Shown: one piece after another, positions 12,995 to 36,560 of the stretch
Numbering within the stretch: the stretch's first letter is position 1
How the letters are laid out: each line of letters opens with the position of its first letter
From: Candidatus Gastranaerophilales bacterium
GTDB lineage: Bacteria; Cyanobacteriota; Vampirovibrionia; Gastranaerophilales; Gastranaerophilaceae
Direction: 5' to 3'
DNA length: 36,560 nt
NCBI GenBank assembly: GCA_944325605.1
Contig: CALVAX010000016.1
Coordinates: forward strand, 1-36,560
The notes under the pieces: generated by a model
What the model was told of the DNA's origin: nothing
Databases searched by the model: none
The model's input: the letters and a program-made list of their open reading frames with translations, nothing else
Program-made: the position numbers and the translations under genes

Positions 12995-13003
12995 TTTTTT
13001 TAT

Positions 13004-13080
13004 GTCATTCTGAGGGCAAAGCCCGAAGAATCTCATCGGATTTTCAGGAGATCCTTCGGCTGGCGCCTCAGGATGACGTC
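13004..13080. repeat. GTCATTCTGAG-type palindromic intergenic repeat
   Basis: GTCATTCTGAGG at the left and CCTCAGGATGAC at the right are inverted. Between them lie GAAGAATCTC and its complement-like GAGATCCTTC. The same modules recur at 13090-13383, 13568-13655, 16071-16300, 16585-16640, 32740-32815 and 36211-36245. No real gene is encoded, although the repeats give false open frames. Confidence 0.6.
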
Positions 13081-13089
13081 TTTTTCCAC

Positions 13090-13383
13090 GTCATTCCGAG
13101 CGGAGCGTAGCGGCTGAAAAATTTTCCAGCACCCGACATGTCATTCTGAGGGAGTGAAACGACCGAAGAATCCCCCACGCCAGACACGTCATTCTGAGCG
13201 GAGCGTAGCGGCTGAAAAATTTTCCAGCACCCGACATGTCATTCTGAGGGAGTGAAACGACCGAAGAATCCCCCACGCCAGACACGTCATTCTGAGCGGA
13301 GCGTAGCGGCTGAAAAATTTTCCAACACCTGACATGTCATTCTGAGGGAGTGAAACGACCGAAGAATCCCCCACGCCAGACAC
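13090..13383. repeat. Three 98-bp tandem repeats
   Basis: Units start at 13090, 13188 and 13286 with GTCATTC(C/T)GAGCGGAG and are nearly identical. A fourth begins at 13384 but switches after GTCATTCTGAGC into the palindromic element below. Each unit holds the pair GAGCGGAGCGTAGCGGC and GAGGGAGTGAAACGACCG. Confidence 0.85.
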
Positions 13384-13394
13384 GTCATTCTGAG

Positions 13395-13478
13395 CACTCT
13401 GCCGAACAAAACGATTAAGTATCGTTTTGTGAGAGGACGAAATTTCGTGCAAAATGTCCGGTTTTCCACAGGATCTCA
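13395..13478. repeat. Palindromic element shared with the tRNA-Pro flanks
   Basis: ACTCTGCCGAACAAAACGAT and ATCGTTTTGTGAGAG form a hairpin. The same hairpin, with AATTGTTTTG arms, occurs three times near the tRNA-Pro genes. The following GCAAAATGTCCGGTTTTCC recurs at about 32790-32809. Confidence 0.6.
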
Positions 13479-13480
13479 AC

Positions 13481-13866
13481 GTCATCCTGAGGCGCACGAG
13501 CAGAGGGTGAAAGGCGTTAGCCATACCCGTTTACTGCGAGTGCGAAAAGCCGAAGGATCTTCTTAAAAATTTTACTGTCATCCTGAGGCTTAGCCGAAGG
13601 ATCCCCTTAAAACGCCATGAGATTCTTCGGGCTTTGCCCTCAGAATGACATGACTTAGACAAAATGGGGCGCTCCTTATCGTCTTTATGCCAAAACTAAC
13701 CTTTCAACCATTCAACTTTTCAACTCTCCTCACCCTTCACTCTTCACCCCTCACTTTGTTAGAACCTGACTTACAAATCACCCACACCCGAAATTGTAAG
13801 TTTGCTAATGCTCACTAACAATTTCTTCCCTCTCCCCTCAAGGGAGAGGGAATTATTTTACGTAAA
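13481..13866. repeat. Large direct repeat, left copy
   Basis: This block, from GTCATCCTGAGGCGCACGAG to GGGAATTATTTTACG, recurs at 16071-16506 with few changes and one extra stretch of about 50 bp (16241-16291). It contains pyrimidine-rich TTCAACC runs and a CTCTCCC-GGGAGAGGG hairpin. No gene is present. Confidence 0.8.
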
Positions 13867-36002: not shown

Positions 36003-36079
36003 TGGTCGGAACGACAGGATTTGAACCTGCGACCTCTACCACCCCAAGGTAGCACGCTACCAAGCTGCGCCACGTCCCG
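36003..36079 (-). tRNA. tRNA-Pro (TGG)
   Basis: The acceptor arms are CGGGACG and CGTTCCG (one G-U), the D-arm is GCGCAGCTTGGTAGCGC, and the anticodon arm CTACC-TTGGGGT-GGTAG gives TGG. The T-arm is CGCAGGTTCAAATCCTGTC-like. The discriminator is A and CCA is encoded. Confidence 0.96.
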
Positions 36080-36100
36080 ATTATTTCAACGGGAAATGTT

Positions 36101-36180
36101 CTCTGCTTGGCAGCTACGCTACCAGACCTCTCGCAAAACAATACTCAATTGTTTTGCTCGGCAGAGTGCCACGTCCCGAT
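36101..36180 (-). repeat. Partial tRNA-Pro(TGG) copy with a palindrome in the D-arm
   Basis: On the minus strand ATCGGGACGTGGC repeats the tRNA's own 5' end. ACTCTGCCGAGCAAAACAAT..ATTGTTTTGCGAGAG (a hairpin) follows, and then GGTCTGGTAGCG, like the rest of the D-arm. The anticodon and T-arms are absent, so it is not a tRNA. Confidence 0.6.
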
Positions 36181-36289
36181 AAAATAATATTTAATTGTCA
36201 ATATTTCTAATGTCATTCTGAGCCGCAAGGCGAAGAATCTCATTAATATTTTATACAAAACCAACTTTACCGATTTTTTGTATAAAAAA
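36181..36289. other. Spacer with a GTCATTCTGAG module
   Basis: GTCATTCTGAGCCGCAAGGCGAAGAATCTC at 36211-36240 is the dispersed intergenic module. CGATTTTTTG..AAAAAATCG near 36271-36292 can act as a terminator for the tRNA-Pro(CGG) on the minus strand. Confidence 0.45.
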
Positions 36290-36363
36290 TCGGGATGACA
36301 GGATTTGAACCTGCGGCCCCCGCGACCCGAACACGGTGCGCTACCAAGCTGCGCTACATCCCG
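36290..36363 (-). tRNA. tRNA-Pro (CGG)
   Basis: The acceptor arms CGGGATG and CATCCCG are perfect, the D-arm is GCGCAGCTTGGTAGCGC, and the anticodon arm CCGTG-TTCGGGT-CGCGG gives CGG. The T-arm is GCAGGTTCAAATCCTGT. CCA is not encoded, unlike the neighbouring tRNA-Pro(TGG). Confidence 0.95.
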
Positions 36364-36560
36364 ATTTATTTATATTTTGTTTGTCATTCGGGAGTTTCTC
36401 TGGTAACCAGCGCTACCAAACCTCTCACAAAACAATACTTAATTGTTTTGCTCGGCAGAGTGCTACATCCCGATTTATTTATATTTTGTTTGTCATTCGG
36501 GAGTTTCCTTTGGTAACCAGCGCTACCAAACCTCTCACAAAACAATACTTAATTGTTTTG
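36364..36560 (-). repeat. Tandem partial tRNA-Pro(CGG) copies with a D-arm palindrome
   Basis: On the minus strand CGGGATGTAGC is followed by the hairpin ACTCTGCCGAGCAAAACAAT..ATTGTTTTGTGAGAG and GTTTGGTAGCGCTGG. The unit, including the upstream spacer ATTTATTTATATTTTG, recurs after 109 bp and runs off the window end. It is the same design as 36101-36180, but the acceptor matches its own tRNA. Confidence 0.65.

Follow-up and report, generated by a model that had tools for sequence, protein, structure and literature searches.

A 41-bp palindromic element within duplicated tRNA gene ends of Gastranaerophilales

The stretch of DNA analysed here (36,560 nucleotides, hereafter the window) is from Candidatus Gastranaerophilales, an order of cyanobacteria-related bacteria of the gut. 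The window and related genomes contain a 41-bp hairpin, element E or type A (ACTCTGCCGAR-stem-loop-YGAGAGG), which at tRNA genes is located in the D-arm (sense) or the T-arm (antisense) of a duplicated tRNA end. The reading that we favour, with a probability of roughly 0.55, is that E is a mobile palindrome which targets hairpins and which, by duplicating the gene end as it inserts, leaves the tRNA whole. It is drawn from direct observation of the architecture of the units, their tRNA specificity and polarity, the duplication, filled and empty sites, a covarying stem and a host-specific reverse complement. Short palindromic repeats and tRNA-regenerating insertions are already known kinds; what appears to be new is that the two come together here, with duplicated tRNA arms throughout one order holding several hairpin families. 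The first-pass annotation of the window had called the element seemingly undescribed, and the open-licence papers on Gastranaerophilales, palindromic repeats and tRNA yielded no earlier description of gene-sparing insertion of a hairpin at tRNA ends.

The units occur family-wide, interrupt assemblies at tRNA genes and would pass for junk or pseudo-tRNAs. On the favoured reading, they show a route by which a mobile hairpin could land in essential genes without destroying them, and the mechanism can be tested on the filled and empty sites of close relatives. Should there be a dedicated enzyme, it would provide a compact system for insertion at tRNA genes in which the genes are kept whole.

Units at the tRNA-Pro genes

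Two intact tRNA-Pro genes, identified by ARAGORN and the Rfam tRNA model, lie on the minus strand of the window, tRNA-Pro(ggg) at 36003..36079 and tRNA-Pro(cgg) at 36289..36364. Beside both genes, the first-pass annotation had seen copies of the tRNA's own 5' end broken by a common hairpin, which is confirmed. In minus-strand order, the locus of tRNA-Pro(ggg) starts with the first copy of a 13-bp duplication, ATCGGGACGTGGC, which forms a pseudo tRNA 5' end (36168..36180; defined by the duplication measurement and the empty site in G002). This is followed by E (ACTCTGCCGAGCAAAACAATTGAGTATTGTTTTGCGAGAGG, 41 bp, 36127..36167; pattern search and covariation), by a post-element segment of 45 bp (TCTGGTAGCGTAGCTGCCAAGCAGAGAACATTTCCCGTTGAAATA, 36082..36126; read from the sequence) and by the second ATCGGGACGTGGC (36069..36081; sequence and duplication measurement), which opens the intact tRNA. 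Within the 45-bp segment, the tRNA D-arm resumes and is followed by a degenerate reverse complement of tRNA nt 24 to 1.

The arrangement at tRNA-Pro(cgg) is parallel, with its own 5' end copied as CGGGATGTAGC (36462..36472, minus strand; sequence) next to E at 36421..36461 (minus strand; pattern search), and with a tandem array that runs off the contig inside a third, truncated E copy (36531..36560, minus strand; sequence). The E 3' ends at 36421 and 36531 correct the tandem spacing from the 109 bp given previously to 110 bp. Contig C17 opens with a unit like those of this array (E at C17:44-84). Many contig ends in G000 (C2, C12, C15, C16, C17, C18, C22 and C23) fall in E units or arrays, and array lengths are therefore underestimated. 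The core hairpin pattern matched three times in the window (0.00 expected from 100 shuffles), two of these matches being the two strands of one copy. At gathering score, Rfam 15 returned only tRNA matches in the window, with weak matches lying far below gathering; a known RNA family or a T-box was rejected, as neither gave an Rfam match.

The cgg-ggg tRNA-Pro pair is adjacent in most genomes of the genus, and species of this one genus differ in the presence and number of units at the same pair. Ahead of the ggg tRNA, G002, G005, G009, G011, G012 and G013 have an empty spacer, and units are found there in G000, G003, G006, G007 and G010. The empty site of G002 is nearly identical to the filled one: its flank shares 95.5% identity with the upstream flank of the window and lacks exactly the unit. 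Thus, insertion of the window unit added 99 bp, with 13 bp duplicated. Assembly artefacts, considered from the outset as a possible source of the copies, were rejected, since the units recur within contigs of many independently assembled genomes, with differing sequences and a clean empty site. A CRISPR array was likewise rejected, as the segment between hairpins is, on inspection, a copy of the local tRNA end.

Duplication lengths range from 9 to 94 bp with a median of 20 (n=59), the longest arising partly from arrays. In a tRNA-Val array of G108 (L271), two D-arm positions are occupied by E copies of different lineages, which indicates separate insertions into the same tRNA, each leaving the tRNA intact.

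After E, the tRNA sequence resumes and in many units is followed by the reverse complement of the same tRNA end. The reverse-complement score against the unit's own tRNA has a mean of 15.1 for 85 units, compared with 10.9 (sd 0.29, maximum 12.0 of 5,000) when hosts were reassigned. The bases replaced by E are present in this segment at L052, L224, L239 and L243; the segment was therefore copied from an intact tRNA, and not selected to pair with the broken copy. Some units lack the segment, for example that of tRNA-Lys in the window genome.

Element sequence and distribution

Genomes were searched with the pattern ACTCTGCCGARN{22,32}GAGAGG, and the reversed pattern served as control. The 2.15-Mb window genome contains 38 copies and no match to the control, which gave 0 in every genome set searched. 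The pattern was matched in 13 of the 14 genomes of the genus and, across the family, in 172 of 191 genomes and 38 of 41 genera (1,344 copies in all). In the rest of the order, E is present in 3/4 genomes of family f6 and 1/3 of family f7; the genomes sampled from the order's other families, from other members of the class and from other members of the phylum have none.

The E hairpin is under constraint. Among 57 distinct 41-mers, the outer stem positions are paired in 507 of 513 cases, with at most 431 in any of 1,000 shuffles. The stem pairs switch type (GC, AT, CG, TA) with the ends constant, a constancy that is partly built in by the ends required in the search pattern. The motif ACTCTGCCGAR alone has 42 matches in the window genome, 38 of them in full elements; since nearly every occurrence lies within a full element, this lends independent support to the constant ends. 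Among the loci fetched for comparison, 230 distinct copies start with ACTCTGCCGA and end with GAGAGG.

A perfectly palindromic form of E, ending in ACTCTGCCGAA and its complement, is found in G108 (L270, 420-466). The unpaired ACTCTGCCGAR matches read in this genome were considered as possible gene-bearing elements, and proved to be a full-palindrome form and a contig-end truncation, with no gene. More generally, E carrying a gene was rejected: the sole gene found, a RAYT lying within an E tip, comes with a repeat of its own.

Outside the sampled hosts, a true E hairpin was found in a record titled Heliobacteriaceae (L105) and in viral contig L285 (IMGVR_UViG_3300011008_000426), which is perhaps a phage of this group. 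A phage-borne element was rejected, as 28 viral contigs have the bare pattern and only L285 has the hairpin, the rest being stemless chance matches. Spread to other phyla was rejected as well: the bare-pattern matches in Clostridia, Dehalococcoidia, Oscillatoria, Planktothricoides, Komagataeibacter and Prevotellaceae lack the stem.

Placement at tRNA genes and elsewhere

When their flanks were read, 21 of the 38 copies in the window genome were assigned to tRNA-end copies and the other 17 to GTCATYCTGAGC-type hairpin repeats with no tRNA-end copy, so that the association first proposed holds for part of the copies only. Of these 21, the four at C2:218349 and C2:220626-220910 look like a tRNA-Arg 3' end but have no tRNA nearby; several others lie at contig ends, with the tRNA out of view.

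The fetched loci show that placement relative to tRNAs is not random. An intact tRNA lies 3' of E, no more than 700 bp away, in 119 of the 230 distinct hairpin-bearing copies (94 on the same strand and 25 on the opposite strand); only two copies have one on the 5' side alone. The loci were fetched via E and partly via tRNA-Pro genes, so genome-wide fractions are not estimable from them; the polarity, unlike the fractions, is independent of how loci were fetched.

The borders of E are clustered across Val, Pro, Lys, Met, Leu, Ile, Thr, Glu, Phe, Arg and Gln tRNAs. Those in sense are found in the D-arm, at nt 11-12 or 18-19 of the tRNA, apart from nt 26 in tRNA-Ile and nt 8 in initiator tRNA-Met, and antisense borders lie mostly 11-14 nt from the tRNA 3' end, in the T-arm. 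At D-loop sites, GTAG is often found directly 3' of E and belongs to the tRNA. The proposal of a palindrome that inserts into tRNA D-arms is thus upheld by the non-random placement and the empty site, although the range of sites has to be widened to antisense T-arms, the anticodon arm of tRNA-Ile, antisense 5S rRNA and other hairpin repeats. The idea that the element keeps the sequence of its host tRNA is not borne out; the tRNA part comes from duplication of the local tRNA end and is not carried by E.

Two loci, L050 and L059, have E in apparent antisense 5S rRNA 3' sequence (GTTCGGGATG|E|GGGTGG), and L050 contains two such copies 213 bp apart. The further hairpin reported at 13395-13432 is indeed an E copy (13396..13436, plus strand; pattern search), and, judged by its flanks, it is embedded in a GTCATTCTGAGC-type palindromic repeat and does not adjoin a tRNA end. 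A cluster of GTCATTCTGAGS...GAAGAATC-type palindromic repeats occupies window positions 13000-13700. Elsewhere in the window genome, E-bearing copies lie inside a larger repeat that starts with ATAGCAAATTCC and ends with GGAATTTGCTAT (inverted ends, MITE-like).

E does recur at tRNAs as first described, but at least one other hairpin family occupies the same slot. Type B (AAGGACTCC-hairpin-GGAG) is found in 13 of the 14 genomes of the genus. An intact tRNA lies within 500 bp on the 3' side of 24 of its 28 distinct copies, and three of the remaining four are at contig ends. Still other insert types are found at D- and T-arms, hairpin tips are common to different types, and hairpins nested in hairpins are general here. 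In G083 (L224, 901-2400), the tip loop of a type A element has given way to a RAYT transposon that brings its own REP (GTAGGTTGGG..CCCAAC); the type A element itself sits in a T-arm pseudo-copy of tRNA-Phe, so that hairpins are nested at three levels. A larger T-arm insert family (GTCTTGCTCRYTCGCG..CCTCAGCTCGYTCGCGC) is seen upstream of tRNA 3' ends at L173, L046 and L068, in antisense copies of tRNA-Val, -Arg and -Lys 3' ends.

Proposed mechanism, alternatives and known systems

According to the favoured explanation, E would be a short, non-coding mobile palindrome of Gastranaerophilales that inserts into DNA hairpins on their 5' strand, taking the place of some 5-6 bases of stem or loop. In a tRNA gene, the target would be the first arm from either gene end, i.e. 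the D-arm in sense or the T-arm in antisense. Insertion would duplicate the outer end of the gene, over lengths from about 9 bp to above 50 bp and in many cases together with a flanking promoter or terminator, leaving the broken copy outside, on the 5' side of E, and the intact tRNA on the 3' side. Tandem arrays would then be built by repeated insertion and unequal recombination. Insertion probably acts on DNA, with one machinery for both insertion and duplication. As the duplication would be limited to the stretch 5' of E, only insertions near an edge would leave an intact copy, and only sense D-arm and antisense T-arm sites would be expected. Counting against this explanation are the variable duplication length, which is unlike that of a standard transposase, the reverse-complement segment, which is not predicted by simple transposition, and the E copies in GTCAT repeats, which show no obvious duplication of the upstream flank.

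A further point against it is that no mobilising enzyme was found; the window genome has no Y1 transposase (PF01797) and no Cas1 (PF01867). Tentatively, a dedicated Gastranaerophilales machinery, distinct from transposases, casposases and integrases, may insert several small-hairpin families into tRNA arms with fixed polarity and rebuild the intact tRNA each time.

Alternatively, the units could be functional structured RNAs in tRNA leaders that regulate tRNA expression or processing. Such a leader would be transcribed from the duplicated tRNA promoter with a start near nt 1, the tRNA end and its complement forming P1 and E a side arm. The preponderance of sense tRNAs beside type A, the almost invariable location of type B units upstream of a same-strand tRNA, and the TTGACA-like promoter copies upstream of many units are consistent with this model. 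So are the folds of the window units, which beat shuffles with z-scores of -5.4 (the unit by 36082..36126) and -4.2, and the unit shared by G000 and G006, which is identical at 77/77 bases (one BLAST segment) beside a 1.3-kb downstream tract of 90.0% identity, a difference that fits recent transfer or selection. However, T-arm units are antisense and lie beside terminators, the 17 window-genome copies are in GTCAT repeats, and units are missing at the same tRNA in many related genomes. Moreover, no Rfam family was matched, and neither a terminator-like site nor a consensus promoter was called on the window minus strand. Sense units may function as RNA; the antisense units, GTCAT copies and many empty sites make such a function an improbable main explanation.

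Somewhat less probable is a by-product of replication, in which forks stall at tRNA hairpins and template switching duplicates tRNA ends, inverted and in tandem, with E copied in. The fold-back copies of the tRNA end, the varying duplication length and the microhomology (TTGA) at one duplication junction of a tRNA-Val (L042) would suit such a process. It does not sit well with borders and ends of E that are constant over dozens of genera, with a 5' border at which no microhomology was seen, with empty Pro loci free of E-less duplicated ends, or with distinct element families in the same slot.

Mobilisation of E as a REP-type repeat by a RAYT (Y1 HUH) transposase, with single-stranded hairpins as its substrate, is unlikely. 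RAYT-like Y1 genes are present in 62 of the 191 family genomes, where E is slightly more numerous (median 5 vs 3, p=0.005), and the transposon of L224 sits in the tip of an E; that RAYT, however, has its own repeat and not E. A Y1 transposase is not required in cis, given that 113 of the 129 Y1-negative genomes carry E and that the window genome has its 38 copies without one. E resembles REP/BIME repeats in being a short palindromic non-coding repeat with dozens of copies per genome, nested and in tandem, with a variable stem and kept ends. It differs in having no cognate RAYT in the genome, in lying in duplicated tRNA ends with fixed polarity, and in lacking the 5' GTAG or CGTC tag, unpaired at one palindrome end, by which most REPs are defined (PMC3733652).

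Integration of the Cas1/casposase type is very improbable: the Aciduliprofundum casposase has a similar outcome at the tRNA-Pro 3' end, with a 14-15-bp duplication (PMC6614799), but cas1 is found in only 32 of the 191 family genomes, without association with E, and need not be present in cis. Casposons and CRISPR spacer acquisition share with E the polarised insertion at a fixed site, the duplicated target, the regenerated tRNA and the tandem arrays; E is distinguished by a genome without cas1, a 41-bp non-coding hairpin without terminal inverted repeats, a duplication that is not constant in length (9-94 bp as against 14-15 bp) and the use of both tRNA ends.

Genomic islands and integrative elements at tRNA genes likewise have a partial tRNA copy on one side and the intact tRNA on the other. 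The E unit, by comparison, is non-coding and smaller than about 130 bp (about 100 bp in the window), has neither cargo nor integrase, and has its border in the D-arm or T-arm together with a reverse-complement copy. Unlike a MITE, E has no constant short target duplication, and its ends, ACTCTG and CCTCTC (reverse strand), match at 4/6 positions. Rickettsia palindromic elements, mitochondrial double-hairpin elements and GC clusters are mobile hairpins that enter genes, RNA genes included; to our knowledge, they are not tied to a duplicated tRNA end, and E differs from the Rickettsia and mitochondrial hairpins in keeping the gene intact by duplication.
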